Assembly: GCA_945878355.1 (NCBI GenBank)
Contig: CAMCTC010000046.1
Span: forward strand, 1 to 33,080
Origin: Bordetella parapertussis
GTDB taxonomy: Bacteria; Pseudomonadota; Gammaproteobacteria; Burkholderiales; Burkholderiaceae_C
Direction: 5' to 3'
Length of the DNA stretch: 33,080 bases
The notes under the pieces were generated by a model. The model made no database searches and was not told the origin of the DNA. It was given only the letters and a program-made list of their open reading frames with translations. Positions 15,848 to 29,401 of this stretch are shown in pieces. The position numbers and the translations under genes were made by a program. Numbering within the stretch: position 1 is the first letter of the stretch; every line of letters starts with the position of its first letter.

Positions 15848-15919
15848 TCGGTGGAACGCACCGCTCCCCCAGCCCCCTCCGGGAGGGGGCACCAGCATGA
15901 ATCTGAAAGCCGGCAACAG

Positions 15920-16624
15920 ATGCTCAGCGTCAACGGATTGAACCAGTACTACGGCGGTAGCCACATCCTGCGCAATGTCGGCTTCGAGGCGCGCATCGGC
16001 GAGGTGACGGTGGTGTTGGGCCGCAACGGCGTGGGCAAGACCACGCTGCTCAAGAGCTTGATGGGCGTGGTGCCGGTCAAGGCCGGCACGGTCACACTGG
16101 GCGGCGTGGACATCACCCGGGCCACGCCTTACGAGAGGGTTCGTCTGGGCGTGGGTTATGTGCCGCAGGGCCGTGAGATCTTCTCGCGCCTGACGGTCGA
16201 GGACAACCTGCGCATGGGCTTGGCGGTCAAGTCCGGCAGCAGCCCCATTCCGGCTGAATTGTTCGAGCTGTTCCCGGTTCTCAAGCAGATGATCAAGCGC
16301 CGCGGCGGTGACTTGTCGGGCGGTCAGCAGCAGCAGCTCGCGATCGCCCGCGCGCTGGCTGCTGCGCCCAAGCTGCTGATCCTCGACGAGCCCACCGAGG
16401 GCATACAGCCCAGCATCATCAAGGACATCGGCCGCGTGATCCGGATGCTGGCCGACTCGGGGCTGAACGGCCAGCGCATGGCGGTGGTCCTGGTCGAGCA
16501 GTATTACGACTTCGCCGCCGAGTTGGCCGACCAGTACCTGGTGATGGAGCGCGGCGAGGTCATCGCCCGCGGCCTCGGCCGCGACATGCAGGCCGATGGG
16601 GTTCGCGAGCGCGTCGCGATCTGA
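15920..16624 (+). CDS. urtE: Urea ABC transporter ATPase UrtE
   Basis: UrtE is the second ATPase of the urea transporter (LivF type). The ATG at 15920 gives 234 residues, the usual length. Motifs are Walker A LGRNGVGKTTLLKSLMGV, the Q-loop GYVPQGREIFSRLTVEDNLR, signature LSGGQQQQLAIARAL, Walker B PKLLILDEPTEGIQPSI and switch His replaced in context by LVEQYYDFAAELADQYLVM, as is normal for LivF/UrtE. The last 83 bases of the gene are the left end of a 383-bp direct repeat whose other copy lies at 27165. The operon ends here. In many related bacteria urease genes follow urtE; here an antitoxin gene and the accessory island come instead, and ureD is 13 kb away and inverted. Confidence 0.96.
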   Translation: MLSVNGLNQYYGGSHILRNVGFEARIGEVTVVLGRNGVGKTTLLKSLMGVVPVKAGTVTLGGVDITRATPYERVRLGVGYVPQGREIFSRLTVEDNLRMGLAVKSGSSPIPAELFELFPVLKQMIKRRGGDLSGGQQQQLAIARALAAAPKLLILDEPTEGIQPSIIKDIGRVIRMLADSGLNGQRMAVVLVEQYYDFAAELADQYLVMERGEVIARGLGRDMQADGVRERVAI

Positions 16625-16924
16625 TAGACCTAAAACATCCTTGACGCGGCCATCGCCCGACGGCGATCAGGCCTCGTCTTCTTCGCGCGGGGCTTGGCCG
16701 CCGCTGCGGCTCATCAGCTGGTCAAAGGCTTCCAAGTCGGCTCTGGCGATGCGCTCGGCGAAATAGGTTTCGGCCTGCATGATGGCCAGCTTCTCGGCCA
16801 CCGCGATGCAGACGAACTGGTTGATGCTGATGCCGTCCTGCTTGCTCAGGCGCTCGATGCCAGCGCGGATCGATCGGGGAAGTCTCAGGGGGTAGGTGCT
16901 CAGTTCGGTCATGACAGACTCCGC
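16542..16924. repeat. Left 383-bp direct repeat (urtE tail plus antitoxin gene)
   Basis: This stretch aligns without gaps to 27165-27547 with about 17 mismatches by eye. Four of them fall in the 246-base antitoxin gene, five in the urtE tail and the rest in the short gap. Left of 16542 urtE is intact. Right of 16924 the sequence departs abruptly and the toxin gene present beside the right copy is missing. The two copies bound an island of about 10.2 kb. Confidence 0.9.
16667..16912 (-). CDS. Ribbon-helix-helix (CopG-like) antitoxin, orphan copy
   Basis: This 81-residue protein starts at MTELSTYPLRLPRSIRAG and is a small CopG/HicB-like ribbon-helix-helix protein: a short beta strand (TYPLRLP), helix (RAGIERLSKQ), the turn DGISINQFV, then a helix (IAVAEKLAIM). 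The tail is acidic (PREEDEA). It is nearly identical to the copy at 27290-27535, with three amino-acid changes. In that copy a PIN-domain toxin gene precedes it and overlaps by four bases. Here the toxin gene is absent because sequence homology stops 12 bases upstream of the start codon. It could still neutralise the remote toxin or repress its promoter. It converges on urtE with 42 bases between stops. Confidence 0.8.
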   Translation of the reverse strand: MTELSTYPLRLPRSIRAGIERLSKQDGISINQFVCIAVAEKLAIMQAETYFAERIARADLEAFDQLMSRSGGQAPREEDEA

Positions 16925-16945
16925 CAACGCATTTGCCCTGCCGGG
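16919..16945. repeat. 27-bp M48 protease gene fragment at the island's left edge
   Basis: These 27 bases are identical to 19507-19533, which lie inside the M48 protease remnant (encoding part of SANAFALPG). Here they abut the end of the 383-bp repeat with a few bases of overlap and are followed by unrelated DNA. The two direct copies therefore flank the flavocytochrome module at 17401-19284. Confidence 0.85.
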
Positions 16946-17400
16946 CAGTCTGATCGTGCACGGTGAAACGGCGTCGGCGCGAAGGCGCTGAGGTGGTGCG
17001 CAAGCACCAACTTGGAATCTAGCTCAATCGCCCACGATCAGCCTGAAATGGACTGTCTAGGGGCTGGAATTGGCGCCGGTTTTGGGGTGATTTTTCTTCA
17101 AGTTTGAACCCCCCGCCAGGCCGCCGGAGGCACCCCGACTGGGCATGAGTTCATGGCTCGGTCCAGGGCGCTTGACGGCCGCCGCGGCGAAGGGGTTCAT
17201 GGCAAATCGGCGCTGCCGTCATCTCGCATCGAGCGGTTGCCGTCTCAGATTTGGATCGGCGCCAACAGTTGAAATGCTCATCCGTCGTCGAACGGGTGCA
17301 CGACAACGCCTTCGGCCCGACCGCGCGCCCCTGGCAGGGCACGCGCGGACCAGGCCGGTCCGGGCAGGGCGCGCCCGGGGCTCCAGCCGGACGCCGAAAC
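16946..17400. other. 455-base stretch without a recognised gene
   Basis: Both strands were read in all frames and no protein family, RNA gene or repeat was recognised apart from the 27-bp protease piece at its left. Short open frames exist but have no ribosome site and no recognisable motif. A relatively T-rich patch lies around 17080-17108. The stretch ends at the stop codon of the flavoprotein gene. It may be degraded mobile-element DNA. Confidence 0.5.
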
Positions 17401-18702
17401 TCAGGCGAAAGTGTCACCCATGAGGGTTGCGAACCACTTCTCCATGTCCTCGTAGTTGCCTGTGGTGGCGCTGGTGGCTACCCTGGGCTGGGTGACACCG
17501 TTCTCGGTCGACGGCACCATCACGCCGTTGGCGTACTGGTAGACGGCCGACAGCCAGGTGGCCCGGGCACTGGTCAGGGGCGTGTAGCAGGCTGAGTTGA
17601 GCACCGGCGACGTCTCTTCCAGCGCGTACAGGCTGCCCTTGAGCGCGTTCACGATGGCGTTGGCGCAGGTCTTGGCCTCCTGGTTGCCGATATGTCCCGC
17701 CTTGGGCATGCCCGAGATGCAGGCATCGCCGATGACGTGGATGCCGGGCTTGAGGGTCGATTCGTAGGTCAGCAGGTTCACCGGGGCAAACTTGCCGTTG
17801 AGCAGGCCCGAGCCGGCCAGCAGGCCCGGGGCGCGCTGCGGCGGTATCGGGTTGAGCACTGCGGCAGCGACCGCATCGGTGGCGCCGTTGCGCGTGTAGG
17901 TGACGTTGTGGGCACCGGCCACCAGCTGCAGCTGGGTCACCGTGCAGCCGGAGCGGTAGTCGACCCGGTAGCCGTAGGCACCGTTGAACGCATTCTGGAA
18001 GTTGGCCTTCTGGGCCTGGATCTCCAGATTGGCGTCGAGCACCACCACCTTGCTGTTGGGCTTGCGGCTTCGCAACCAGTCCGCGATCACGCAGGCCCGC
18101 TCGTAAGGGCCGGGCGGGCAGCGGAAGGGCGCCAGCGGCACGGTGATGACCACGTTCTGCCAGTCCGGCATGGCCAGCAGCTGGCTGCGCAGCAGCGTGG
18201 TCTGGGCGCCGGCCTTCCAGGCGTGCGGCACGATGCTGTCGTACTGGCTGGCGCTGGTCATGCCGGGCATGAGGTCGAAGTCCACGCCCGGCGCCAGCAC
18301 CAGGCGGTCGTAGGTCAGGACGGCACTCCCGGCAGCCGTTTCATAGGTGACCGACTTGTTGATGTCATCGATGCCCGTGACCATGCCCTGGATGCGCTGG
18401 ACGCCGTACTTGGTGGTCAGCGCGGTGTACGAGTAGACCAACGAGTTGACGGACGCGCGTTTGCCGGTGACGACCTCGTTGCTCAGGATGTTGGACACGT
18501 ACGAGGCGTCCTTCTCGATCAGGACCACGCTGATCTCGCCCTTGCTCCACAGGCGGATGAACTTGGCCACGGCGGCACCGGCCATGCCGCCGCCGACCAC
18601 CACCACGCTGAAGGAAGCCGCACGAGCAGCGAATGGGATGAGCCCAGCGCCGAGGGTCAGGCCCGCGGCTGCCGTGGATTGGATGAATTGACGACGTTTC
18701 AT
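17401..18702 (-). CDS. fccB: FAD-dependent sulfide dehydrogenase-like flavoprotein (FccB/SoxF type)
   Basis: This 433-residue protein resembles the flavoprotein subunit of flavocytochrome c sulfide dehydrogenase, which oxidises sulfide in the periplasm and passes electrons to a cytochrome c partner. A Tat signal (MKRRQFIQSTAAAG) is followed by a dinucleotide fold FSVVVVGGGMAGAAVAKFI (residues 31-49). Cys195 in PFRCPPGPYERACV is the family's conserved cysteine. Cys328 in VIGDACISGMPKAGHIGNQ matches the second, so the redox pair is present. GVDFDLMPG and the C-terminal FCSD-type dimer domain also fit. The start at 18702 has GAGAGG upstream. It lies 9 bases after the cytochrome gene, so the two form an operon. 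The substrate could be another sulfur compound. Confidence 0.85.
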   Translation of the reverse strand: MKRRQFIQSTAAAGLTLGAGLIPFAARAASFSVVVVGGGMAGAAVAKFIRLWSKGEISVVLIEKDASYVSNILSNEVVTGKRASVNSLVYSYTALTTKYGVQRIQGMVTGIDDINKSVTYETAAGSAVLTYDRLVLAPGVDFDLMPGMTSASQYDSIVPHAWKAGAQTTLLRSQLLAMPDWQNVVITVPLAPFRCPPGPYERACVIADWLRSRKPNSKVVVLDANLEIQAQKANFQNAFNGAYGYRVDYRSGCTVTQLQLVAGAHNVTYTRNGATDAVAAAVLNPIPPQRAPGLLAGSGLLNGKFAPVNLLTYESTLKPGIHVIGDACISGMPKAGHIGNQEAKTCANAIVNALKGSLYALEETSPVLNSACYTPLTSARATWLSAVYQYANGVMVPSTENGVTQPRVATSATTGNYEDMEKWFATLMGDTFA

Positions 18703-18711
18703 GGGGACCTC

Positions 18712-19284
18712 TCAACGCACGCTGGCGAAGTAACTGGCGATGGACTTCAGCTGGGCATCGGTGAAGCCCATGGCGTGCGCGGCCATGATGCCGCTGGCGT
18801 CTTCCTTGCCGCTGGCAAACTCACGCAGCTCGCCATAGATCTCGTTGGCGCTCTTGCCGGCCAGGCGGTCGAATCCGCCGGTGCCGTTGGTGCCGTGGCA
18901 CTGGAAGCAGTTGCTGGCCAGCAGGCGGCCGCTCAGCGCTCCCGTGGGCGTGGCGGCCGCGGGAGGAGTCGAGGTCATCGCAGACGTCACGTCCACCTTG
19001 ACCTTCGCGTCCGACCTCTCGTCCTTGAACTTGACTTCCGCCCTGCCGGCCGCGCTGCCGCTGATGCGGTAGGTCGAGGCATCGACCCGGGTCACGCTGA
19101 CGACAGCGGGGCTGGAATTCCTCACCGCCAAGGTGCCCGACACCTTGGCAACCGTGACCGTTCGTGACTCTCCGGACGCCATGGAGACGGACTTGGACGA
19201 GACCGTGACCGCCCAGGCCGAGCCCGAGGCGAGCAGACCCATGGCAAGGAACCACTGTCCGACAGTACTTTTGACTACCCTCAT
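18712..19284 (-). CDS. Class I cytochrome c with N-terminal beta-rich domain (FccA-like)
   Basis: The ATG at 19284 has AGGGG about six bases upstream and gives 190 residues; a longer frame upstream is rejected because it lacks a signal sequence. A signal peptide ends at GSAWA (residue 25). Residues 26-100 are Ser/Thr/Val-rich, alternating strands (VTVSSKSVSMASGESRTVTV onward), resembling a bacterial Ig-like or pilus-assembly-N type domain. A Pro/Ala/Thr linker follows. The haem motif is CFQCH (126-130), with a candidate axial Met at about 167 (SGIMAAHAMGF) and a c553-like ending. It is the likely electron acceptor of the flavoprotein that follows 9 bases downstream. A beta-domain in front of the FccA cytochrome is unusual. 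Confidence 0.8.
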   Translation of the reverse strand: MRVVKSTVGQWFLAMGLLASGSAWAVTVSSKSVSMASGESRTVTVAKVSGTLAVRNSSPAVVSVTRVDASTYRISGSAAGRAEVKFKDERSDAKVKVDVTSAMTSTPPAAATPTGALSGRLLASNCFQCHGTNGTGGFDRLAGKSANEIYGELREFASGKEDASGIMAAHAMGFTDAQLKSIASYFASVR

Positions 19285-19442
19285 CTGAAACCCCTTCTTC
19301 GATAGACTGCGACGGAACGTCACGTTGCCAGGCCAGCTCCGTCCGGCCGTTGTGGCTTGCGGCCACGCCTGGTTCATGCAAAGAGACGACATCGTTATCG
19401 ACCGGGAACCCTGTGCACTCGGTTGAGTTTGCGCGGTGAAGA

Positions 19443-19457
19443 TTAAGATCTTCTTAA
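19443..19457 (-). promoter_or_regulatory. Short inverted repeat upstream of the cytochrome-flavoprotein operon
   Basis: TTAAG and CTTAA arms enclose ATCTT in an AT-rich patch about 160 bases upstream of the cytochrome start, in otherwise GC-rich DNA. It could be an operator or part of the promoter of the fcc-like operon. No regulator is adjacent. The evidence is composition and symmetry only. Confidence 0.25.
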
Positions 19458-19483
19458 CCCGAGTTTCACGGTCGTAAGCGGCT

Positions 19484-19672
19484 GTGACTGGGCTGGACCG
19501 CTCGTTCTCCGCCAACGCATTTGCCCTGCCGGGTGGCTACGTCTATTTGACGCGCGGCATCATGGCTTGCATGGACAGTGAGGCTGATCTGGCGGGTGTC
19601 ATCGGGCACGAAATCGGACACCTTACTGCGCGCCACGGGGCCCAGCGTGCCACCAGTGAGCAGAACGGGGGC
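19484..19672 (+). pseudogene. M48 family metalloprotease, internal fragment
   Basis: Translation gives LDRSFSANAFALPGGYVYLT followed by RGIMACMDSEADLAGVIGHE and IGHLTARHGAQRATSEQ. This is the M48 (BepA/LoiP-like) core with the zinc-binding HEIGH motif and the family's NAFALPGG loop. Both ends are missing: there is no signal or upstream domain, and the frame runs after about 60 residues into unrelated sequence. It cannot be a working protease. Its 5' part shares 27 identical bases with 16919-16945. It appears to be a relic interrupted by the insertions that built the island. Confidence 0.85.
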
Positions 19673-19674
19673 CG

Positions 19675-19833
19675 GTGCCGGACAACCAGACGCGCGCCGA
19701 CGCCGAGGCGCTGTACCCGCAGTTGGTGGCGCGCTATGCCGCGCCGGGGCTGCGCCCGCCGTTCAACCTGGCGGCGTGGGGCGCGGCGGGCTTCAGCGAG
19801 GCCGAACTGGTCGACCTGGCGCGCAAAGCCTGA
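19675..19833 (+). pseudogene. Unidentified 3' gene remnant
   Basis: An in-frame segment ending at a TGA at 19831-19833 encodes about 52 residues (ADAEALYPQLVARYAAPG, then RPPFNLAAWGAAGFSEAELV). It looks like the C-terminal tail of a larger protein joined to the M48 fragment. A faint resemblance to the tail of DUF455/ferritin-like proteins was noted, but this is not secure. No ribosome site precedes it. It converges on the nucleotidyltransferase gene, whose stop is 18 bases further. Confidence 0.4.
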
Positions 19834-19851
19834 GCCGCGCTGCGGTGCCGA

Positions 19852-21021
19852 TCACTGCGGCGCTGGCGCCACCACCGCTTCGTCGTCGCGCATCTGCTGG
19901 CGTTGCAAGCGCCACTTGCGCCACAAGTGCGGCAGCAACAGCTGCAGCGGCATGCGGCGGCCGTGGTGGCGCGCCAGCAGCAGCGTGGCCGCCAGTTCCC
20001 GGCGCAGCGCAGGCGGGTCGTCCGGCTCACTGGGCATCAACACCAGCGCCAGCACCGGCAGCAGCCAGGCCCGTTGCAGCGCGCCGGGTCCGGCCCGGCC
20101 GATGGCGCTGATGGTCCACAACGGCACCGGCGTGCCCAGCCAGCGCGTCGTGAAGTGGCAGGCCAGCGCCAGCGGTTCGGCCAGGCCGAGTTCGGTCGCG
20201 CGCGCCGTCAGCCGACGCCAGAAGTTCTGCTGCGCGCTGAAATGGCGCAGCAAGCTGTCGAGGTCGACCAGATCGCGCACCCGGTCCAGCAGTTCGGAAT
20301 CGAAGAACAAGTGCGCCGCGCTGTGCAGCACCTGATCGACCGGGTCCAGCACCTGCCAACCGGACAACTGCGATCCCACCAGCCAGGCGATGAGCCGGTC
20401 GGCGTCCACCGGTGCGTGACCCACCGCCGGCAGGATGTTGTGGTGCAGGTCGAGCTCGAGCGGGATCAGTGGATGCGTCATCGGTGGAGCCTCATGGCTC
20501 CACTCGTGGTAATAGCGCTGATCATGGGCGTCCAGCACGGTCTCGGACCATCCGGCCGCGACAAGTCGGGACTGCGCATCGGCCAGGTGTGCCCTTGGCA
20601 CCAGGATGTCCAGATCGGACGGCAGGCGACCGCGCGCGATGGCCAGGCCCTGCGCAACATAGGCCGCCCCTTTGAGCAGGACCCGCGGATAAGGCGCGTC
20701 CGCCAGCACCGTGGCGACACGCTCGATGGTCCAGCGCATCGCCGCGCTGCGGCTGCGCGACAAGTGTTGCTCGGCCACCAGATGGCGGCGCGCAGGTGCG
20801 GGCACACTGGACAGCAAGCCGGCAGCGTCGATCGCCTCGGCCAGCCTGGCCAGCAGGCGCAGGCGGCGCGACAGTCGCACCACCCGCTGCCAATCGGCCA
20901 GCGACCAGCCCAGCGCAAGTTCAGGCCGACGCAGCGCCTGCAGCCAGGCCAAGGCCGACGGCGGCTGGAACATCCGCTCGTCTATCGCGAGATTCCGGTC
21001 GGGAGAGATGTCGGGCGTCAT
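19852..21021 (-). CDS. Nucleotidyltransferase family protein (NTP_transf_5 type)
   Basis: This 389-residue protein has the uncharacterised NTP_transf_5 nucleotidyltransferase fold. Residues 114-145 hold VLLKGAAYV, then GRLPSDLDILVP, the catalytic pattern (a GS-like start and the DxD metal-binding pair). ELDLHHNILP further on may supply the third acidic residue. The C-terminal half is helical, with conserved HSAAHLFFDSELLDRVRDL. The ATG at 21021 overlaps the stop of the HprK-like gene (ATGA), so it is translationally coupled and is the last gene of a four-gene operon. In lasso-peptide clusters, related nucleotidyltransferases sit beside HprK-like kinases. Its acceptor here (protein, peptide or small molecule) is unknown. 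Confidence 0.85.
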   Translation of the reverse strand: MTPDISPDRNLAIDERMFQPPSALAWLQALRRPELALGWSLADWQRVVRLSRRLRLLARLAEAIDAAGLLSSVPAPARRHLVAEQHLSRSRSAAMRWTIERVATVLADAPYPRVLLKGAAYVAQGLAIARGRLPSDLDILVPRAHLADAQSRLVAAGWSETVLDAHDQRYYHEWSHEAPPMTHPLIPLELDLHHNILPAVGHAPVDADRLIAWLVGSQLSGWQVLDPVDQVLHSAAHLFFDSELLDRVRDLVDLDSLLRHFSAQQNFWRRLTARATELGLAEPLALACHFTTRWLGTPVPLWTISAIGRAGPGALQRAWLLPVLALVLMPSEPDDPPALRRELAATLLLARHHGRRMPLQLLLPHLWRKWRLQRQQMRDDEAVVAPAPQ

Positions 21022-21992
21022 GGTGCGGTCTGCCCGTGGCGCTCGCGCACCTGGGTCCAGATGGCGTCGATCGCTGCCAAGGCTTCGCCCAAGTCGCTGT
21101 ACACCAGTTGCCAGCCCGGGCAGCGCTGCACCATGCCGACCACCGCCCGAAACGCGGTCGCACCCAGCACACCGTAATTGAAGGCATTGAAGGCCAGCGC
21201 CGGGAACAGGCGGTTCGGCGGCAGGAGTTCCAGCCGGGTCGGGCTGCCGGCCTGCCACTTGGGCAGCACGAAGGCACCGGGACTGGCTGGCTGATGGCGC
21301 CGCGCCACCGAGTCGGGCAAGGCGGCCAAGTGGGCGACGTTGCCCTTGCGGGTCTTTGGAAACTCCGGTCCGAAAGACGCGTCGGGCGCAAAACGGCGAA
21401 GCACGCCGATCGACTGATTCTTCAGCGCCACCGGCTTGAGCATGGCGCGGAAAACACCGCTGTCGGGATCGAAGGCGCCGAACTCGTCGGACAACAGGCG
21501 CCAGCCGCGCTGCGACAGCGCCGCGGTCAAGGTGCTCTTTCCCGAGCCGGGCAAAGCCGGCATCACCAGCGCCAAGCCGTCGCGCTCGACCACGCCAGCG
21601 TGCAGCAGCAGCAAGTGGTTGAGGCGCTGGCCGATCAGCCAGTTGCAGCCCCATTCAAACAGCGGCAGCGGGCTGTCGGCGGGAAAGGGATCGAAGGGGC
21701 GTCGACCGTCGCTGAACAATTCGACCTGGGGCCGGGCCCAACGCCGCAGGCCGGCAGGGCGAGCGATGCGCACCTGGCAGTCAGACCAGTCGGCGTGGGG
21801 GACAAACGGAAACGCCGGGTAGGCTTGCTGCAGTTGCCGGGCCAGTACCCGGCTGTCGCTGCGCACCTGCAGCGTCGCAGCGCCGACGTCCAGCCACAGA
21901 CCGCCCCGGCTGAGCGCGCGGTACAACTCGGTCAGATCGACACCGGCCAACGGACGACCCGCAGACTGCGCCCCGACGTCGATCGGCGTCAC
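21018..21992 (-). CDS. HprK-related kinase (HPr-rel-A type)
   Basis: A GTG at 21992, overlapping the stop of the upstream PqqD-like gene (GTGA), gives 324 residues. Residues 145-154 form a P-loop (PALPGSGKST), followed by TLTAALSQRGWRLLSDEFGAFD, the HPr kinase/phosphorylase arrangement where the acidic pair after the loop is catalytic. The region before it (GRRPFDPFPADSPLPLFEWG) and after it (KPVALKNQSIGVLRRFAPD) fits the HprK-related kinase A family known from HPr-rel-A gene sets in exosortase-type bacteria. No HPr protein is nearby, so the phosphorylated target is probably the secreted partner, a peptide or a sugar. In paeninodin-type lasso clusters a related kinase phosphorylates the precursor peptide. 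Confidence 0.85.
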   Translation of the reverse strand: MTPIDVGAQSAGRPLAGVDLTELYRALSRGGLWLDVGAATLQVRSDSRVLARQLQQAYPAFPFVPHADWSDCQVRIARPAGLRRWARPQVELFSDGRRPFDPFPADSPLPLFEWGCNWLIGQRLNHLLLLHAGVVERDGLALVMPALPGSGKSTLTAALSQRGWRLLSDEFGAFDPDSGVFRAMLKPVALKNQSIGVLRRFAPDASFGPEFPKTRKGNVAHLAALPDSVARRHQPASPGAFVLPKWQAGSPTRLELLPPNRLFPALAFNAFNYGVLGATAFRAVVGMVQRCPGWQLVYSDLGEALAAIDAIWTQVRERHGQTAP

Positions 21993-22276
21993 GACTGTGG
22001 CGTGCCGGCGCCAGCATGGCGGCGCAGCAGTCCGGAACCGATCAAACTCGGCCAGTGGGTCTCGAGCATCGCCGCCAATTGCTCGGCGGGCAGACCGCAG
22101 TCGAGCGCCAGCGCCGCGCTCACCGCATCCAGGTCGGCCGGGCCGTCTCGCAGGCATTCGAGGATCGCCGCACTCTCGTCGTTGAGCAAGGCAGTTTCAC
22201 CACTGATCGGACTGAAAGCCGCCCAGACATCGCCCAAGGGCGCGAGTTCGAGGCCCTCCACCAGCGCAAAGCGCAT
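21989..22276 (-). CDS. PqqD-like peptide chaperone (HPr-rel-A type)
   Basis: The ATG at 22276 gives 95 residues. The sequence FSPISGETALLNDESAAILECL is the PqqD pattern, a small winged-helix fold (RiPP recognition element) that binds leader peptides or substrates and presents them to modifying enzymes. The second half (LDAVSAALALDCGLPAEQLA) is helical, as in PqqD. The stop overlaps the GTG start of the kinase gene, and the upstream secreted-protein gene ends 20 bases before the start, so all four genes are probably one transcript. No PQQ synthesis genes are present, so a PQQ role is unlikely. A GTG or TTG start slightly upstream cannot be excluded. Confidence 0.75.
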   Translation of the reverse strand: MRFALVEGLELAPLGDVWAAFSPISGETALLNDESAAILECLRDGPADLDAVSAALALDCGLPAEQLAAMLETHWPSLIGSGLLRRHAGAGTPQS

Positions 22277-22296
22277 CGGCTGCCAACCGGCCGGGA

Positions 22297-22887
22297 TCAA
22301 CGGATGAACGAAGTCCAGCAGGACTGCGAAACCGAGTTCCCTGTGTAGCCGGCGTTGTACGTACCGATGCCGATGATCTGGCCACTGGCGTCGACCAGCA
22401 CCGAATACCATCTGCTGACACTTGCGTAGACACCATTCATACCGTTGACTGGAGAGTTGTAGATCGTCCCTGCGCTGGCCCCAGTGCCCGACTCCACGCA
22501 CAAGAACTTGCCCGCGACGATCCAGTTGTTCTTGATTCCGGACTTGAGCCCTGCGACGTTGGCCACGGCGACGATATCGGCATGACTGACCCAATAGCTG
22601 CGTGTCTTGTTGCTGCCGTTGGGCAGAAAGCTGCTGGCCTGCACCCGAAGCCAACCCGTGGTGGTGCTGGGTTGGCTGGTGACAAAGTCCTGAGGGTCCG
22701 CCTCCGAAGCCGCCGACCGGGCCATGCACGCCCCTGTCGAGGTCGCTGCCATCGCACCGCCGCTGAACAAGGTCAGTGCGGCCGGTGCCGCAAAGCTCCC
22801 CTTGATCAGGCGCCGTCTCGCGCTGACATGCTCTTCGGTACCTTGCAATTGGTCGGCCAAATCACCCTCCTGCGCGTCTTTTGACAT
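22297..22887 (-). CDS. Tat-signal secreted protein, first gene of the HprK/PqqD operon
   Basis: The ATG at 22887 (MSKDAQEGDLADQLQGTEEH) gives 196 residues; an in-frame ATG at 22923 is possible. A charged N-terminal region of about 30 residues precedes a twin-arginine-like signal (ARRRLIKGSFAAPAALTLFSGGAMA), so the protein is probably exported with a long leader. The mature part has three cysteines (ACMARS, FLCVES, QSCWTS), many Ser/Gly/Asn and a C-terminus rich in aromatic and Gly residues (TYNAGYTGNSVSQSCWTSF). No family was recognised and no PEP-CTERM sorting tail is present. Its place at the head of the operon makes it the candidate substrate of the kinase and nucleotidyltransferase, with PqqD-like binding of the charged leader. 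That is inference. Confidence 0.7.
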   Translation of the reverse strand: MSKDAQEGDLADQLQGTEEHVSARRRLIKGSFAAPAALTLFSGGAMAATSTGACMARSAASEADPQDFVTSQPSTTTGWLRVQASSFLPNGSNKTRSYWVSHADIVAVANVAGLKSGIKNNWIVAGKFLCVESGTGASAGTIYNSPVNGMNGVYASVSRWYSVLVDASGQIIGIGTYNAGYTGNSVSQSCWTSFIR

Positions 22888-23031
22888 TTGATAAAGTATC
22901 TCAGCCTTGGAGCAGCCCACCATCCGCTCAGATCGGGGGTTAAATGTTATTTTCGGTCGTTTTGCATACGCGACGCCCGCAATACGGAGCGCAGCACGGC
23001 GGCGCCGGACAGCGCGCCGCGCCGGGTCCGC

Positions 23032-23671
23032 TCAATCGGCGTCGACCCCTGCCGACTTGATCACCTGCCCCCCGGCGCTCGGTCTGCTGCTTCAGCCAAC
23101 TGCTCGGGCTTTCGGGTGTGAGCTTGGCATCGGGCACGATCTCGGCGCCGAGCTTGGCCATCCGAGCCCTGAACAACGGATCTCTCGCCGGGCTGGTGCC
23201 CTGGTAGGCCACAGTGGTCAGGTCCACCCCCACCGCCTGGCGGTACACCATGCCACACAGTTGCGAGACCGCGCCCAGCCCGGCATGGGCCAGGGTGACC
23301 TTGTCGCCCCGGGACTTGAGGTAGATCAGCAGTTCGGGCAGGGACTTGGCCGGCAAGCCCTTGCGCCCGATCAGCGTCATCGGCACGTCCACCACCTGGC
23401 CGACGAACTCGAAGTCGGTCAGCGGGTCGTAGGGCAGCTGGCGATAGAGCGCCGGCGCGGCGGCCATGCCTTTGTGGTGGATCAGCAAGGTGGTGCCGTC
23501 GGGCGCTGCGCGCGCCACCAGGCCGGTGGGCCTCCCCGCGGCGAAGGGCACGACCAGGACGATGGGACGCATCGGGGTGACCTGCGACCAGGCCAGGCTG
23601 GCCACCGGGCCACCGGGCCAGCGAGCACGGCGAGTGCAGCCAGTGAGCCAAGCCGCGAACGAACAATCAAG
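23032..23671 (-). pseudogene. Decayed TctC/Bug substrate-binding protein gene
   Basis: Bug-family pieces are recognisable: a signal-like start (LIVRSRLGSLAALAVLAG), VTPMRPIVLVVPFAAG, APDGTTLLIHHKGMAAAPAL, YRQLPYDPLTDFEFVGQV, VYRQAVGVDLTTVAYQGTSP and the end AKLGAEIVPDAKLTPE. Two frameshifts are visible. An 8-bp tandem duplication (CCACCGGG twice, 23602-23617) breaks the signal peptide from the body, and an extra G in a six-base run (23068-23073) shifts the last residues, which would otherwise read VIKSAGVDAD then stop. Two internal deletions (after FAAG, and after GTSP) shorten the protein to about two thirds of normal. It cannot produce a working receptor. Confidence 0.85.
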
Positions 23672-23819
23672 GACAGACTCCCTCGGAAGGCAAACAAGTT
23701 TGCGCGCCGGCGCCGTTGGCCAGCACCCTTGAAACGCCGTTCGGCCTGACCCCACCGCATCGCGCGGCTCGCCGTGCTTTCCGGAGGGTCCGGCCCTGCG
23801 CCACCGCCAGCCGCCGGCT

Positions 23820-24479
23820 TGCCCACATCGCGCCAACACGCGGATTGTTCGCAACGGCAGTGCCGGCGGCTTGCAACGCTTCAAGTGCCGGGCTTGCCAA
23901 CGCACGTTCAACGCACTGAGCAAGACGCCGTTGGCCTGGTTGCGGAACAAGGCCAAGTGCTTGCAACAAAAGGCGCTGGGCCGGGGGCTGATCGTTCGTT
24001 TGGCTTCGGCAGAGTTGGGAGTGGCGCCCTCGACGGCGTTTCGCTGGCGCCACCGCTTCTTGCAACTGACCCAGCCGGTCAAGGCGCTGGTGCTCACCGG
24101 CGTGGTCGAGGCCGACGAGACCTTCTTTCTGCGCTCCAGTATGGGCCAGCACCCGGGCCGTGCTCCTCGCAAGCGTGGAGGCCATGCGCCGCGCAAGTGC
24201 CGCGGCGAGGACCTGATTCCCGTCCTGGTCGCCCGCGATCGTTCCGCAGCGACGGCCGACTTTCTGCTGGAGGCGGTCTCCAAGAAGTGCCTGAGCGAGG
24301 CTCTCAGCCCGCGCGTCAAAGCCGACGCCATTCTTTGCACGGATCGCTCGGCAGCGATGGCCGCGACCGCCAACGCGTGTCACGGCAGGCTCAAGGGCTG
24401 GATGTATCGCTTCAGAGGGGTGGCCACGTCGTATCTGGAAAGCTACCCGGGATGATTCCGCGCGCTCGACCGGGCCTGA
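23820..24479 (+). pseudogene. IS1595/ISXO2-like transposase, damaged
   Basis: The frame has an N-terminal zinc-ribbon half (CPHRANTRIVRNGSAG, then FKCRACQRTFNALS), a helix-turn-helix (LGVAPSTAFRWRHRFLQ), the DDE-type catalytic part VVEADETFFLRSS, and ILCTDRSAAMAATA. It then jumps to HGRLKGWMYRFRGVATSYLE, so a stretch of about 40 residues between the second Asp and the C-terminal helices is missing. The end YLESYPG is followed by TGA in place of the usual Trp, and the frame continues as FRALDRA. The upstream part of the zinc ribbon has no clear start codon. IS1595-family elements use cut-and-paste or replicative movement; this copy is inactive. A second fragment lies at 25466-25715. Confidence 0.85.
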
Positions 24480-24560
24480 CCAGTCGCTCAAGGGGGGCGC
24501 CAACGGCAAGAATCGACTCACATCGAAGAAGTGTGTAGACTTTCGCACAAGGAGTCACAC

Positions 24561-24764
24561 ATGGCTACAAATCTCGCAATCGATCCAGCCCTTCTTGACC
24601 GAGCCGTTCAAGTCAGTGGTGAACGCACGAAGAAGGCCACGGTAACCAAAGCCCTACAAGAGTTCATCGCGCGCCGCGAGCAACGGCGCGTAGCCGATCT
24701 ACTCGGCAAACTGGAGTGGGATCAGTCATTCGACTACAAAGCTGAACGGTCTCGTCCCAAATGA
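24561..24764 (+). CDS. vapB: VapB-type antitoxin
   Basis: This 67-residue protein (MATNLAIDPALLDRAVQVSG) belongs to the VapB antitoxins with an N-terminal DNA-binding segment (beta strand plus helix, ERTKKATVTKALQEFIAR) and a C-terminal toxin-wrapping tail (LGKLEWDQSFDYKAERS). AAGGAG lies about seven bases before the ATG. It overlaps vapC by four bases (ATGA). It binds and inhibits the PIN RNase VapC and represses the pair's own promoter. The module lies right after the damaged transposase and before an attC-like site, typical of TA modules carried on cassettes. Confidence 0.9.
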   Translation: MATNLAIDPALLDRAVQVSGERTKKATVTKALQEFIARREQRRVADLLGKLEWDQSFDYKAERSRPK

Positions 24765-25183
24765 CGCTGCTCGTTGATACAAGCGTTTGGTCCCTGGCCC
24801 TTCGTCGGGATATTGAAGCTACCGAACCTGAGGTGCAAGAGCTCAAGGACGCCTTGTTCGGCTCAAACCTTGTAGTCACTACAGGCCTGGTCCTTCAGGA
24901 ACTATTGCAAGGGTTCTCGGGTGCCAAAGCCCAGGCTCAGATCATCGAACGCTTTGCCGCATTGCCTTTGCTGCAACCCGATCGAGATGATCACATCGGT
25001 GCGGCAGTCCTGCGAAATGCATGTCGCCAAGCGGGCATTCAGATCGGCACTATTGATGCACTGCTTGCACAACTCGCCATCCGGCACGGTCTGACGCTCC
25101 TCACCACAGACAAAGACTTCACGCATGCGGCCAAGCACTGCGCGCTTCGCGTTTGGCCCGCTAAGGAGCGGGCGATGCGGTGA
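24761..25183 (+). CDS. vapC: VapC PIN-domain toxin (RNase)
   Basis: This 140-residue PIN-domain protein starts at the ATG overlapping vapB. The first catalytic Asp is in TLLVDTSVWSLAL, with the acidic residue in VLQELLQGF and IGTIDALLAQLAIRHG, and the final acidic site TTDKDF. VapC toxins are magnesium-dependent endoribonucleases that cut tRNA or rRNA when VapB is degraded. All acidic positions are present, so it may be active. The pair is complete and in the usual antitoxin-first order, unlike the PIN module at 27290-27951. The stop sits at the first bases of an attC-like hairpin. Confidence 0.92.
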   Translation: MTLLVDTSVWSLALRRDIEATEPEVQELKDALFGSNLVVTTGLVLQELLQGFSGAKAQAQIIERFAALPLLQPDRDDHIGAAVLRNACRQAGIQIGTIDALLAQLAIRHGLTLLTTDKDFTHAAKHCALRVWPAKERAMR

Positions 25184-25240
25184 TGCCCTTCAATCGAGAG
25201 GCTGTGCTAAAGCATGCCTCTCATTTCAAACGTTAGGCAT
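25183..25240. repeat. attC-like integron recombination site, degenerate
   Basis: The 58-base stretch after vapC has matching outer ends ATGCC/GGCAT, perfect inner arms GAGAGGC (25196-25202) and GCCTCTC (25216-25222), and ends in GTTAGGC (25232-25238), the attC core recombination sequence. TTTCAAAC precedes it, as in attC L boxes. The other core (GCCCTTC) is a poor match to RYYYAAC, so it is degenerate. This would make vapBC one gene cassette and the next small gene the following cassette. Confidence 0.5.
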
Positions 25241-25267
25241 CTATTTCATGAAGGAGACTCGGTACCA

Positions 25268-25465
25268 ATGAACACAAAAATATGGCTGTTCATATCTCTC
25301 ATTCTGGCTCTATCCATGTTTGGCGGTATGGCTCACGCTGCCGATGAAGAGGCCGACTGGCTCGTTGAGCAATGTAAGTCAGCAATTACCTTCTCAGGCC
25401 CGCTGGCTCCAGAACCCATGGGTGCAATGAACATGGGGTTCTATTTTGGGCTCTTTGCGCGTTAG
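25268..25465 (+). CDS. Small secreted protein of unknown function
   Basis: The ATG at 25268 has GAAGGAG about twelve bases upstream and gives 65 residues. A clear signal peptide (MNTKIWLFISLILALSMFGG, ending AHA/ADEE near residue 24) is followed by a short acidic mature part with one cysteine (WLVEQCKSAITF) and a Met/Gly-rich end. The frame stops just where an IS1595 fragment begins, so the protein may be shortened by that insertion. It starts 28 bases after the attC-like core, where a cassette gene would be expected. No family was recognised. Confidence 0.55.
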   Translation: MNTKIWLFISLILALSMFGGMAHAADEEADWLVEQCKSAITFSGPLAPEPMGAMNMGFYFGLFAR

Positions 25466-25715
25466 TTCGTGATGACTCACGCCATGATCCACTGCCGTGT
25501 CAGACTTGGCTTCGTGGCCCCGTGTTGCGGGCTTTCGGAGCCTGCGATCGATGCGGGAGAACTGAAGCGTTGGCTGGCGTCGGTGGCGCGGCTGACGCCG
25601 GCCCAGAAGGCCGATTTCCTCAAGTTCTTTGCACAGATGGCTCGGCAGCGATGGCGGCGACCGCCAAGGAAATGGGCGTGCACCACGAAGCCATGAATCT
25701 GAGTGCAGGCGGAAT
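25466..25715 (+). pseudogene. Second IS1595-type transposase fragment
   Basis: Two pieces of an IS1595-type transposase are joined here. The first encodes the N-terminal part (EPAIDAGELKRWLASVARLT, then PAQKADFLKFF). The second, in the next frame, encodes LCTDGSAAMAATAKEMGVHH then EAMNLSAGG, the region after the second catalytic Asp. About 35 bases around 25627-25663 closely match 24336-24372 of the first fragment. The zinc ribbon and first Asp are missing, so it is an internal deletion derivative and cannot act. It holds part of the region the fragment at 23820 lacks. Confidence 0.7.
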
Positions 25716-25726
25716 GTTGCCTTTAC

Positions 25727-26539
25727 TTACTTCTGTTTCGCAGTCCGTGCCAGCAGCACCGGTGACGTCTGGAAATCGATCCAGCCGGTATCGATACCTG
25801 CGCTGTAACCGTCATCCACCGGCAGATCAACACCGTTCACCCAGCGTGGACCAAAGAGCAACATCTCGATTGCTTCCGCAACCTCATCAGGCGTTGCGGC
25901 GCGGCCGGTCTGGGCGTTGGTCCAATCACTTTGCGCCTTGCCCATCAACGCTTCAAACTGAGGGGTGAGGGGAGTATCAATGCCGCCGGGGCTGACGCAG
26001 TTGATGCGTGTTGACTTGCCGGCATGTCTCTGCGCCTCCTGCAAGGTAAAGGCGGTCACGCAGCGTTTGGAAAAGGTATAGGGGTCGCGGGCAAAACCCT
26101 CGCGATTGGCTTCACACCACGCCAGTCCCTCTGCCATTGAAGGCGTCGCCAGCAGTGGCTGGATCCGATCCAGGCGGCCTTTCCAGTCGCGCCCGGCAAT
26201 GGACGAGACGCTGACGATACTGCCTTGCTGCGTGAGTCGATTGGTCAGTTCCTGCGTCAGCAGGCGCAAGCCGAGAAAATTCACAGCGACTACCCTGGTC
26301 GGATCGGTTGCGCGGGCGATGCCGGCCACGTTCACCAATCCATCGACGGCATCCGGAATCAAGGCAAGCGCAGTGGTGATCGAAGACTCGACCGCGAGAT
26401 CACAGTGGACGAATGCACCGACGGCAGACGGTGGGGCATTGACGTCCAGATTGATGACCTGGTGGCCGGCGCCGACAAGCCGGCACACCAATGCATAGCC
26501 GACGCCCGAAGAGCCGCCGGTGATAACCAGTGTTTTCAT
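25727..26539 (-). CDS. Short-chain dehydrogenase/reductase (SDR)
   Basis: This 270-residue protein is a classical SDR: cofactor motif TGGSSGVGYAL at the N-terminus, DL (residues 47-48) and the NVAG-like loop (VNVAGIAR), catalytic Ser in VSSIAGRDW and the YTFSK pair (Y-x-x-x-K). VSPGGIDTPLTPQFE and FGPRWVNGVDLPVDDGY complete the fold. The layout, with a long insertion between the Ser and Tyr motifs and DGLVNVAGI with VVAVNFLGL, resembles the 3-alpha-hydroxysteroid dehydrogenase/carbonyl reductase group of Comamonas. The substrate is unknown. It stands alone, converging on the IS1595 fragment. Confidence 0.88.
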   Translation of the reverse strand: MKTLVITGGSSGVGYALVCRLVGAGHQVINLDVNAPPSAVGAFVHCDLAVESSITTALALIPDAVDGLVNVAGIARATDPTRVVAVNFLGLRLLTQELTNRLTQQGSIVSVSSIAGRDWKGRLDRIQPLLATPSMAEGLAWCEANREGFARDPYTFSKRCVTAFTLQEAQRHAGKSTRINCVSPGGIDTPLTPQFEALMGKAQSDWTNAQTGRAATPDEVAEAIEMLLFGPRWVNGVDLPVDDGYSAGIDTGWIDFQTSPVLLARTAKQK

Positions 26540-26786
26540 GGATACCTGACCTCATGGATGTGGATCGCTTCTGTTTATTCTCGCACGCAAGCGTGACGCG
26601 TCCGAAGCCTGGCGACCAAGGAAAAACCATTGCTCAGCCGAGGCAAAGGCGTATCAACGGGCTCGACGCTTGTTTTCCTGTGGAGGGAGAGCAGTCGCAG
26701 TCGTAATGCGAGGAAGTTGGTGGTCTCGCAGCGCTGAAGTATTCCCCTTGATCGGTCATTTGAACCAGAAAACGGGTGAGCATTCC

Positions 26787-26942
26787 ATGGGCAAGCACTA
26801 CGGTTTCGTGCACTTCTTTCCTTTTCTGTTCAGAAACAGCCGTCTGCTGGTCGGGTGGCTCGCGCTGATAACCTCGATCGGTTTGCCGGCGGCGGGGTAC
26901 GCAGCCGACAACGCGCCCAAGGCCAGTACCGCGCTTGGTTTG
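26787..26942 (+). pseudogene. N-terminal membrane/signal fragment joined to the EAL relic
   Basis: From an ATG at 26787 the frame reads MGKHYGFVHFFPFLFRNSRL then LVGWLALITSIGLPAAGYAA and DNAPKAS. This is a signal-anchor-like start of an envelope protein, after which the frame runs into EAL-gene DNA in the wrong frame. It is probably the 5' remnant of a gene cut by deletion. The parent family cannot be named. Confidence 0.4.
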
Positions 26943-27247
26943 ACACTGATCTGGCCATGCGCGCCCGCCACGGCGAGATGCAGTGAGCCACCCGGCTGGA
27001 GCAAGCCATCGACGAGAACCGTTTCGTGCGCTATGCGCAACGAATTCGGGCGCTGACGTCAGACCCTTCAGGCCTGCATGCGAAAGTGTTGCTTCGGATA
27101 GTGGACGCCGCTGGCCGCGTGATCCCGCCGGGCGCCTTCCTGCCTGCCGCCGAACGCTTTCATCTGATGGCGCGCGGCGAGGTCATCGCCCGCAGTCTCG
27201 GCCGCGACATGCAGGCCGATGGGGTGCGCGAGCGCGTCGCGATTTGA
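26943..27247 (+). pseudogene. EAL-domain gene fragment fused in frame to the UrtE tail
   Basis: The frame encodes DLAMRARHGEMQ, a TGA stop at 26984-26986 where related proteins have Trp, then ATRLEQAIDENRFVRYAQRI and IPPGAFLPAAERFHL. This is the linker and start of a GGDEF-EAL cyclic-di-GMP phosphodiesterase. At 27165 it joins, in frame, the copied UrtE C-terminus (ARGEVIARSLGRDMQADGV). The EAL signature, the metal sites and the rest of the domain are missing, so no phosphodiesterase activity is possible. The junction marks the right border of the island. Confidence 0.8.
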
Positions 27248-27547
27248 TAGCCCCACATCAGCCGTGACGCGGCCACCGCCCGACGGCTATCAGGCCTCGT
27301 CTTCTTTGCGCGGGGCTTGGCCGCCGCTGCGGCTCATCAGCTGGCCAAAGGCTTCCAAGTCGGCTCTGGCGATGCGTTCGGCGAAATAGGTTTCGGCCTG
27401 CATGATGGCCAGCTTCTCGGCCACCGCGATGCTGACGAACTGGTTGATGCTGATGCCGTCCTGCTTGCTCAGGCGCTCGATGCCAGCGCGGATCGATCGG
27501 GGAAGTCTCAGGGGGTAGGTGCTCAGTTCGGTCATGACAGACTCCGC
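27165..27547. repeat. Right 383-bp direct repeat (urtE tail plus antitoxin gene)
   Basis: This is the gap-free partner of 16542-16924. Here only the last 27 codons of urtE are present, fused to the EAL relic, whereas the antitoxin gene continues into its intact toxin gene. The left copy has the opposite arrangement. Together they fit an insertion of about 10.2 kb into one ancestral urtE-antitoxin-toxin locus with duplication of the target region. Confidence 0.9.
27290..27535 (-). CDS. Ribbon-helix-helix (CopG-like) antitoxin, paired with PIN toxin
   Basis: This 81-residue copy differs from the one at 16667-16912 by three residues (Ser for Cys in QFVSIAV, Gly for Asp in EAFGQLM, Lys for Glu in PRKEDEA). 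Its start codon overlaps the stop of the PIN toxin gene (ATGA on the minus strand), so the toxin is translated first. It is a likely DNA-binding antitoxin. The near-identical second copy means two antitoxin genes serve one toxin gene in this window. Its 3' end lies 42 bases from the urtE relic. Confidence 0.82.
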   Translation of the reverse strand: MTELSTYPLRLPRSIRAGIERLSKQDGISINQFVSIAVAEKLAIMQAETYFAERIARADLEAFGQLMSRSGGQAPRKEDEA

Positions 27548-27951
27548 AAGAATGGACCGGGCAAGGACAGTTGCAGCCCGAAACGGTGGGCTGCGTTCGA
27601 AAAATTCTTTTGGTTGAAGCTCAGCAATACATCAGCGCCGGCGTTGACTGCAGCCTCCAGCACCAGTTCGTCGCCCGGATCACGCAACTGGGGTCGCCAT
27701 CTGAAGTGGATCGGTACCGGCTCAACCAGCTTGGCCATGGCGTCCAGGAAGATTCCGATCTGATGTGAGCTCAAACCGGCGGCTTCAGCATGTTCCGGAC
27801 GCTGGCAGACGGCTTCGTATTTGGTGAACAGACTGACGCTGGCAGCCAGCCGGAGTTGGCCCAGACGCACGCGTCTCAACAAGGCCGCTGAAGCCCCTGT
27901 CGGGCTGCGCAGCGCAGCCACGACGACATCCGTGCCCATCACCATCAACAT
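27532..27951 (-). CDS. PIN-family toxin (PIN_3 type), toxin-first TA module
   Basis: Up to 139 residues, with ATGs at 27951, 27945 and 27939. The N-terminal TDVVVAALRSPTGASAALL is the PIN_3 pattern, with the first catalytic Asp. RPEHAEAAGLSSHQI follows, and DPGDELVLEAAVNAGADVLL holds the central acidic residues. The last motif reads LLSFNQKNF, where an acidic residue is more usual, so activity may be altered. It directly precedes the ribbon-helix-helix antitoxin and overlaps it by four bases, the reverse of the usual order but typical for this PIN subgroup. The right border of the 383-bp repeat lies just inside its 3' end. Confidence 0.82.
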   Translation of the reverse strand: MLMVMGTDVVVAALRSPTGASAALLRRVRLGQLRLAASVSLFTKYEAVCQRPEHAEAAGLSSHQIGIFLDAMAKLVEPVPIHFRWRPQLRDPGDELVLEAAVNAGADVLLSFNQKNFSNAAHRFGLQLSLPGPFLRSLS

Positions 27952-28060
27952 AGTTTATGGTGTCACCGGCGATGAGGGTTTCTTGGTCTCTTAGGCCTGT
28001 AGGACGCGCCGCTGCCGGGTCCATGGAGGCGAGTTGCAGACCAAGCCTAGACTCGGCTGC

Positions 28061-29401
28061 ATGACGCCCACCCCATCGACACCTTCTGTTTCAACGCCGT
28101 CCCTGCGGGTCGCGATCATCGGTGGCGGCCCTGCCGGTCTGATGGCCGCCGAGGTTTTGCTGCAAGCTGGCGCCAGCGTCGACCTGTACGACGCGATGCC
28201 CTCGGTGGGCCGCAAGTTCTTGCTCGCCGGCAAGGGTGGCCTGAACCTGACGCACAGCGAGGCGTTCGAGCCTTTCGTCGGCCGTTACGCCGAGCGCGCG
28301 GCCCAGGTCGCTTGTTGGCTTTCGGCCTTCAGCCCGCAGGATTTGCGCGATTGGGCTTCAGGCCTGGGCATCAAGACTTTTGTCGGCAGCTCGGGCCGGG
28401 TGTTTCCGGCCGAGATGAAGGCTGCGCCGCTGCTGCGGGCCTGGCTGCACCGCTTGCGTGGCGATGGACTGCGGCTGCACATGCGCCACCGCTGGCTGGG
28501 CTGGACTGACGCTGATGCGCCCACGCTGTTGCGCTTTGCCACACCGCAGGGCGAGCAGGTGCTGCAGGCCGACGCGGTGGACGCGGTGGATGCGGTGGAT
28601 GCGGTGGTGCTGGCGCTGGGCGGCGCGAGCTGGCCCCAGCTTGGCAGCGACGGCGCCTGGGCGCCCGGGCTGGCGGCGCGCGGCGTCGACCTGGCGCCGC
28701 TGCAGCCGGCCAACTGCGGTTTCGACGTCGCTTGGAGCCCTTATTTCGCCCAGCGTTTTGCCGGCGCGCCGATGAAGACGGTGCGGCTGTATTTCGACGA
28801 TGGCCAGGACCAGGCCTTCGACCGCCAGGGCGAGTTTGTCGTCACCGCCGGCGGCGTCGAGGGAAGCCTGGTGTACGCCGCCTCGGCGCGGCTGCGCGAC
28901 GCGATTGCCCGCGACGGCCACGCCACCGTGCTGCTCGACCTGCTGCCCGGGCGTAGCGTGGCGCAGATCGGCGCGGCGCTGGCCAAGGGTCGCGGCGCGC
29001 GGTCCTTGCCCAACCATCTGAAAGAGCATGCCGGGCTCGACGGCGTCAAGGCTGCGCTGCTGCGCGAGACCTTGAGCGCCGAGCAATTGGCGGCCCGGGT
29101 GGCCACCGACCCGTTGGGGCTCGCCGCCGACCTCAAGGCCTGGCCGCTGCGGCTGACCGCGGCCAGACCGATCGCCGAGGCCATCAGCAGTGCCGGCGGC
29201 GTTCGCTTCGAGGCGCTGGACGAGCACGCGATGCTCAAAGCCTTGCCGGCGGTGTTCTGTGCCGGCGAGATGATCGACTGGGAAGCGCCCACCGGCGGTT
29301 ACCTGCTCAGCGCCAGCCTGTCCAGCGGCCGCGCTGCGGCGGCCGGCGTGCTGGCCTGGGCGCTGCGCTCCGCCTTGGTCGACCCGGTCGACCCGGTCTG
29401 A
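28061..29401 (+). CDS. HI0933-family FAD-dependent flavoprotein (TIGR03862 type)
   Basis: The ATG at 28061 gives 446 residues. A dinucleotide fold VAIIGGGPAGLMAAEVLLQA (about residues 16-35) is followed by the HI0933 signature GRKFLLAGKGGLNLTHSE, then VFPAEMKAAPLLRAWL, LALGGASWPQLGSDGAW, FVVTAGGVEGSLVYA and a C-terminal FCAGEMIDWEAPTGGYLLSA, where the flavin is held. The family's function is unknown; it is an NAD(P)/FAD oxidoreductase. A run of four GACGCGGTG-like 9-mers (28571-28606) encodes DAVDAVDAVDAV just before VVLALGG. The gene converges on ureD with six bases between stops. Confidence 0.9.
   Translation: MTPTPSTPSVSTPSLRVAIIGGGPAGLMAAEVLLQAGASVDLYDAMPSVGRKFLLAGKGGLNLTHSEAFEPFVGRYAERAAQVACWLSAFSPQDLRDWASGLGIKTFVGSSGRVFPAEMKAAPLLRAWLHRLRGDGLRLHMRHRWLGWTDADAPTLLRFATPQGEQVLQADAVDAVDAVDAVVLALGGASWPQLGSDGAWAPGLAARGVDLAPLQPANCGFDVAWSPYFAQRFAGAPMKTVRLYFDDGQDQAFDRQGEFVVTAGGVEGSLVYAASARLRDAIARDGHATVLLDLLPGRSVAQIGAALAKGRGARSLPNHLKEHAGLDGVKAALLRETLSAEQLAARVATDPLGLAADLKAWPLRLTAARPIAEAISSAGGVRFEALDEHAMLKALPAVFCAGEMIDWEAPTGGYLLSASLSSGRAAAAGVLAWALRSALVDPVDPV
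28571..28606 (+). repeat. 9-bp tandem repeat inside the flavoprotein gene
   Basis: Four in-frame copies of a 9-mer (GACGCGGTG twice, GATGCGGTG twice) encode Asp-Ala-Val four times. Related proteins usually show one such unit (ADAVVLALGG), so this is a local expansion that keeps the frame and would vary by slippage in steps of three residues. Confidence 0.85.

Follow-up and report, generated by a model that had tools for sequence, protein, structure and literature searches.

Integrative elements that target the 3′ end of a gene place accessory DNA beside the end of a core gene, with the intact gene on one side and a displaced gene tail on the other, and chromosomal integration hotspots between core genes hold, at a single place, cargo that varies from relative to relative. 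Three competent species are known to take up DNA by homology-anchored illegitimate recombination, and recombination in the flanks can spread islands (PMC2884548). Here, we describe an island in a 33 080-nucleotide stretch of a Bordetella parapertussis assembly (GenBank GCA_945878355.1, contig CAMCTC010000046.1, positions 1–33 080; hereafter the window), which lies between urtE and a gene for an HI0933-like flavoprotein and is bounded by two copies of a segment comprising a urtE tail and an antitoxin gene. We consider it somewhat more probable than not (roughly 0.55) that the island stems from the uptake of foreign DNA with its own urtE/antitoxin segment by recombination at a variable spot, followed by trimming.

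The direct repeat is 383 bp long, the longest among those reported for the window, and its two copies (Table 1) align without gaps in the same orientation with 17 mismatches (95.6% identity) and a start-to-start distance of 10 623 bp. Each copy consists of the last 83 bp of urtE, a 42 bp spacer, the open reading frame (ORF) of an 81-residue antitoxin on the minus strand and 12 bp past the antitoxin start; outside both copies identity falls to background (1–9 matches per 20 bp block). The left copy is continuous with an intact urtE and has no toxin gene on its side, whereas the right copy contains only a truncated urtE tail and runs on into an intact 139-residue PIN protein. The longest identical run shared by the copies (114 bp) lies in the antitoxin segment. 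An earlier note on this DNA had described the repeat, the unequal surroundings of its copies and the accessory, mosaic character of the DNA between them; these observations are correct, as borne out by the alignment, the ORFs with the PF13470 match and the profile and DNA matches, respectively. Its interpretation, an insertion into an existing urtE–antitoxin–toxin locus with duplication of the target, is partly supported.

The two edges of the island have different neighbours. The left repeat copy is followed by the remnant of the end of an IS21-family insertion sequence (IS), which matches three places in two close relatives (88% on contig C233 and 90% on contig C126 of genome G419, and 83% on contig C224 of genome G410). 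At the first of these (locus L155) the matched end is followed by IstB (NF038214, 245 bits versus a cutoff of 200) and then by a partial IstA (28.6 bits, under the cutoff of 160); the outermost bases of the IS21-type end are altered in the window. At the right edge, a decayed EAL-domain gene fragment meets the urtE tail at the 6 bp microhomology TGATGG. Positions 26933–27162 of this fragment are 75% identical to an EAL gene in genome G001 (contig C189), with a stop codon at 26984–26986 where the latter has a Trp codon. TGATGG forms the first 6 bp of the repeat and is common to both copies, before their first mismatch, so that certain urtE-derived sequence on the right starts only at ∼27172. 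A composite transposon has the same IS at both ends together with a target duplication, whereas IS21-type sequence was matched at the left edge only. Duplication of the target in the transposition sense was rejected, since the repeat is too long and too diverged (4.4%), its edges are unlike and no integrase or other tyrosine or serine recombinase was found among 17 island ORFs scanned with Pfam, a scan that left out some small ORFs.

Relatives were obtained from a public-genome scan with UrtE, which kept 80 loci; the best of these (L001, in G001) shares with the window the gene order urtE, HI0933-like gene, ureD, and its genus comprises 21 genomes with mostly fragmented assemblies. Sixteen of the 21 congeners match the last 425 bp of urtE completely or almost completely. 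The gap between urtE and the HI0933-like gene was measurable on one contig in ten of the 21 and amounts to 32 bp (G001), 86 bp (G420), ∼0.9, 0.9, 1.6, 3.6, 3.6, 3.6, 4.4 and 12.2 kb, the larger figures being distances between sequence matches; the list takes in G412 (∼3.6 kb) and leaves out G413, where the 3.0 kb is measured from a cut-off urtE. Because the two genes are only 32 and 86 bp apart in two congeners, positions ∼16625–28045 of the window are variable DNA and, on these comparisons, represent one of the states taken by a variable chromosomal spot that urtE and the HI0933-like gene flank. Distances of 147–156 bp between tblastn matches in two loci outside the genus (L003 and L013) suggest that the close neighbourhood is the older state. 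The cargo at this spot differs from genome to genome among those compared. G419, which is ∼91% identical to the window in the urt operon and 88% identical in the right flank, has at least 10.8 kb of cargo unrelated to that of the window, encoding a γ-glutamyltranspeptidase, an IclR regulator, a penicillin amidase and an oligopeptide transporter; both of its contigs end inside the one penicillin-amidase gene (profile positions 3–217 and 231–675). The right flank is 94–95% identical in G410, whose contig starts inside the HI0933-like gene and in which urtE was not found. The target flanks are contiguous in the island-free G001 and G420, in agreement with the insertion proposed by the earlier note. 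The existing urtE–antitoxin–toxin locus that the insertion was thought to have entered has not been seen in any relative: the short-gap genomes also lack the toxin–antitoxin pair, and none of the relatives examined has even one full antitoxin copy between urtE and the HI0933-like gene.

The PIN protein matches PF13470 and scores 36.8 bits with TIGR00305 (cutoff 29.15). Its gene precedes that of the antitoxin, with the end of the toxin gene overlapping the antitoxin start by 4 bp, and the family score together with the antitoxin partner leads us to predict a type II toxin–antitoxin system; the 81-residue antitoxin itself has no Pfam match. A sizeable DNA match to the pair occurs in only one congener (G413, elsewhere in its genome, 68–73%). 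A sample of the family gave matches in 11 of 399 genomes, in five of which most of the pair is covered, and no urtE match was present in the 18 fetched loci with a toxin–antitoxin match, most of which reach only ∼1.5 kb to each side. Judged by this distribution, the pair itself belongs to the variable DNA. Homologues on plasmids (30 records for the antitoxin and 73 for the toxin) are all below 60% identity and therefore offer no plasmid donor. Among the matches listed are 23 protein clusters for the antitoxin at ≥91% and one cluster for the toxin at 96%; a dispersal of many antitoxin copies without the toxin was considered but dropped, as the lone toxin cluster stands for 89 member sequences and the contrast probably derives from clustering. 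A simple consensus scan found no promoter for either antitoxin copy, a result that is uninformative in this kind of genome. One relative hints at an older urtE–antitoxin locus, the sole such case: a 40 bp stretch behind urtE of G419 can be aligned to the left copy (32 identical positions) through the spacer and over the final 16 bp of the antitoxin gene, with a score of 45 compared with a maximum of 32 in 1000 dinucleotide shuffles and 19–29 in eight other relatives.

Second, cut-off urtE tails are found in two other genomes. G209, which belongs to the same family and is not in the 21-genome genus list, carries on one contig an intact urtE, a histidine kinase gene and, 2.1 kb downstream, a 99 bp second tail in the same orientation (87% identity). 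In G413 the two forms lie on separate contigs that may adjoin. Contig C143 carries urtBCD followed by an intact urtE and stops 538 bp beyond it; contig C152 carries a cut-off urtE consisting of 89 bp plus 127 bp of the gene, with the HI0933-like gene 3.0 kb downstream and AraC, CMD, EamA and SnoaL family genes upstream. Against a baseline in which about a quarter of random single changes are synonymous, the codon differences between cut-off and intact tails are strongly biased, with eight synonymous and no nonsynonymous in G413 (p = 1.2 × 10⁻⁵) and 11 synonymous and three nonsynonymous in G209 (p = 3.3 × 10⁻⁵); the upstream urtE piece of G413 has one of each. The mostly synonymous differences imply that the tail alleles of these two genomes diverged elsewhere, inside working genes, before they met. 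This bears on the possibility that the arrangement in the window arose by tandem duplication in place, through TGATGG, of a segment running from the tail of urtE as far as an EAL gene downstream, with the first copy then gutted by IS21-linked deletions and insertions. Such a duplication would leave the joint between EAL fragment and urtE tail that is observed, but a local duplicate would not diverge under coding constraint as the G413 and G209 tails have done. The EAL piece is also unmatched both in the first 20 kb of the G410 contig (C369) and in the 5 kb downstream of the HI0933-like gene in G419, so that the duplicated unit would have to be longer. We regard a tandem duplication as unlikely.

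The distribution of differences between the two copies in the window is uneven: four of 74 positions in the urtE tail, eight of 42 in the spacer, four of 246 in the antitoxin gene and none in the last 12 bp. By Fisher tests on small numbers, divergence of the spacer exceeds that of both the urtE tail (p = 0.028) and the antitoxin gene (p = 3.5 × 10⁻⁵), and the lower divergence of the right urtE tail relative to the spacer again disfavours a tandem duplicate. Several observations nevertheless weigh against foreign uptake. Six of the eight spacer differences fall within 14 bp, so that a single event affecting several bases could produce a similar picture. Of the four antitoxin codons that changed, three now encode another residue (C35 in the left copy, G64 and K77 in the right); the 23 nearest database proteins include one with C35 (P0013) and none with G64 or K77. 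G419 polarises ten sites, placing eight changes on the right copy (among them the junction base corresponding to 16548) and two on the left, which also fits a relaxed local duplicate and is thus a point in favour of the tandem duplication. The urtE tail of the window itself has no significant synonymous excess (two synonymous versus one nonsynonymous codons; p = 0.17). The G419 trace aligns only weakly to the right copy (score 35, shuffle maximum 34). A second urtE tail is rare, being present at one of the 121 loci whose sequence reaches 300 bp or more beyond urtE (82 of these loci reach 2.5 kb or more; several loci per genome), and the sole positive is G209, which was chosen because an earlier search had listed two tail matches there. 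Finally, neither the urtE–antitoxin–PIN arrangement, which the earlier note expected as the ancestral empty site, nor a donor was found among the relatives examined.

A mobile element with its own recombinase may instead have inserted at the 3′ end of urtE, where it supplied a restoring gene end and pushed the previous tail aside, in which case the repeats began as attachment sites. The window, G413 and G209 each have a cut-off tail besides an intact urtE, as elements targeting 3′ ends leave behind, a restoring tail would likewise diverge synonymously and the cargo varies at one place. However, no recombinase was detected in the 17 island ORFs scanned, and in ten relatives searched for PF00589 no match was listed on the contigs with urtE or the HI0933 flank. 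In addition, 383 bp with 17 mismatches is long for an attachment site (in G413 the homology extends ∼415 bp into urtE), most of the loci tested are without a second tail and the IS21-type DNA is confined, as far as matched, to the left edge. This origin therefore seems quite improbable. Still less credible is an assembly chimera, in which two strains or two loci sharing the antitoxin segment were joined inside the island. Several interior pieces recur elsewhere in relatives and would invite misjoins, but the 17 differences allow reads to separate the copies, so that the error would have to lie inside the island; a like architecture is present on one contig in G209; and the GC content shows no step at the repeats, although it drops to 0.54–0.62 at 24–27 kb of the window.

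Under the favoured reading of foreign uptake, a pair with the PIN-toxin gene first would have arrived between urtE and the HI0933-like gene. Foreign DNA with its own diverged urtE-tail/antitoxin segment would later have entered by homologous recombination, either through a single crossover of a circle or through homology-assisted illegitimate joining, leaving one copy of the segment on each side. Subsequent deletions and IS insertions may then have trimmed the edges, giving a mosaic of cassettes, IS remnants and broken genes. We infer the order of these events, the donor and RecA as the agent. Exchange between the repeats by RecA could also remove 10 623 bp, after which urtE, the toxin and a single antitoxin would remain, as the earlier note anticipated; such an excision is plausible because the 114 bp identical run exceeds the ∼30 bp cited as the recombination threshold of Escherichia coli (PMC2884548). 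The same geometry excludes addiction of the island to the PIN toxin, since the toxin and one antitoxin stay on the chromosome after the deletion and the pair cannot enforce retention of the island. Under the favoured reading, the left antitoxin of the present locus would be a scar, which may add to the antitoxin dose if it is expressed.

The content of the island (Table 1), as judged from profile and DNA matches, is an accessory mosaic that combines intact cassettes with remnants of IS elements and pieces of broken genes. The cytochrome c is the probable partner of the flavoprotein encoded next to it. The cassette of the HprK-related kinase A also encodes a nucleotidyltransferase and a small secreted-looking protein. 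Copies of the VapBC region (24505–25188) lie elsewhere in G410 (95% identity) and G419 (91%), and since the flanks differ in the three genomes the region has moved as one module with sharply defined edges. Two IS1595-type pieces (24331–24373 and 25625–25667; 43 bp, 93% identical, same orientation) lie on either side of this pair. A segment of ∼110 bp (19699–19808) has one match each in six of eight congeners searched (78–89%), with different neighbours where inspected; Rfam gave no match at gathering thresholds over the whole window, including this segment.

Table 1. Features of the island and its flanks, with positions in the window.
Feature	Positions	Strand	Evidence or remark
urtE, intact, left flank	15920–16624	+	234-residue ORF; 97% amino-acid identity to urtE of G419
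Left repeat copy (urtE 3′ end, spacer, antitoxin)	16542–16924	+	Repeat alignment
Antitoxin without toxin, 81 residues, intact ORF	16667–16912	-	ORF; plasmid relatives annotated 'toxin-antitoxin system HicB family antitoxin'
IS21-family element, remnant of its end	16946–17241	+	83–90% identity to G419 C233, G419 C126 and G410 C224
Flavocytochrome c sulfide dehydrogenase-like flavoprotein	17401–18702	-	PF21706, PF09242
Cytochrome c, start uncertain	18712–19290	-	PF00034, 26.7 bits versus 21.3, scanned as ORF 18712–19515
M48 peptidase gene fragment	19484–19700	+	Profile positions 30–86 of 186 only
NTP_transf_5 protein, HprK-related kinase A and neighbouring ORFs	19852–22923	-	PF14907; TIGR04352, 343.8 bits versus cutoff 200
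TctC-type solute-binding protein gene fragment	23023–23594	-	Profile positions 30–146 of 274; extent from DNA matches
IS1595-type transposase, degenerate	23871–24455	+	PF12762, 24.4 bits, under cutoff 27; second piece 25625–25667
VapBC toxin–antitoxin pair	24531–25183	+	PF09957, PF01850
Short-chain dehydrogenase	25727–26539	-	PF13561
Decayed EAL-domain gene fragment abutting right repeat	26933–27164	+	75% to EAL gene; Pfam EAL 21 bits, under cutoff 31.3
Right repeat copy (urtE tail, spacer, antitoxin)	27165–27547	+	Repeat alignment
Antitoxin paired with toxin	27290–27535	-	ORF
PIN-domain toxin (predicted), 139 residues, 5′ of and overlapping antitoxin	27532–27951	-	PF13470; TIGR00305
HI0933-like flavoprotein, right flank	28061–29401	+	PF03486; flank homology resumes at ∼28046

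Further repeats were observed in and around the urt operon. A 44 bp dispersed intergenic repeat lies between urtD and urtE (15857–15900) and occurs at 91–96% identity in at least nine places in genome G004, while in G209 ∼570 bp between the same two genes (locus L228, 2604–3150) form an imperfect palindrome (73% identity to its own reverse complement). A G+C-rich 50 bp repeat (12044–12093 and 13786–13835, 90%) is located close to the starts of urtB and urtC, and a long minus-strand ORF that is open at the window edge (1–2559) contains tetratricopeptide-like repeats of 126 bp (42 residues).

Taken as a whole, the locus looks like ordinary genome turnover by recombination with unusually readable edges rather than a self-moving element. 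A wider proposal, which we put forward tentatively and hold to be doubtful, is that cargo docks recurrently at the 3′ end of urtE without a recombinase of its own. It would bring along part of a working urtE from the donor (here together with an antitoxin gene), RecA would load and unload it, and cut-off tails and orphan antitoxins would stay behind as scars in at least two genera. The case provides an apparently integrase-free variable spot with legible edges and illustrates that a toxin–antitoxin pair beside an island need not hold that island in place. A synonymous excess in a displaced gene tail is a simple test of a foreign allele against a local duplicate, and the site is concrete enough for gain and loss to be sought in long reads from the same habitat.

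Compared with known systems, the island shares an intact gene and a displaced tail with integrative elements that duplicate a gene 3′ end; here, no integrase was found in the ORFs scanned, and the long, diverged repeat, which includes an antitoxin gene, is unlike the short near-identical attachment sites of such elements. The variation in cargo resembles that of chromosomal hotspots, although here it was measured within one genus of mostly fragmented assemblies. A Methylosinus plasmid pair (toxin at 140729–141121 and antitoxin, annotated as HicB family, at 141154–141390) is alike in order and strand, but differs, as does the usual PIN (PF13470/TIGR00305)/HicB-annotated pair, from the present locus, where the antitoxin is present twice and one copy has no toxin. 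Segments described for homology-assisted illegitimate recombination are mainly of 20–500 bp, most with flanking repeats below 30 bp, compared with 10 kb and 383 bp here (PMC2884548). These segments are nevertheless alike in being inserted or replaced between conserved genes, with homology on one side and a short-homology join on the other, and in having repeats at their base that allow deletion (PMC2884548); the island shows the same combination, with 114 identical bp in the antitoxin segment on one side and the TGATGG join to the EAL fragment on the other.

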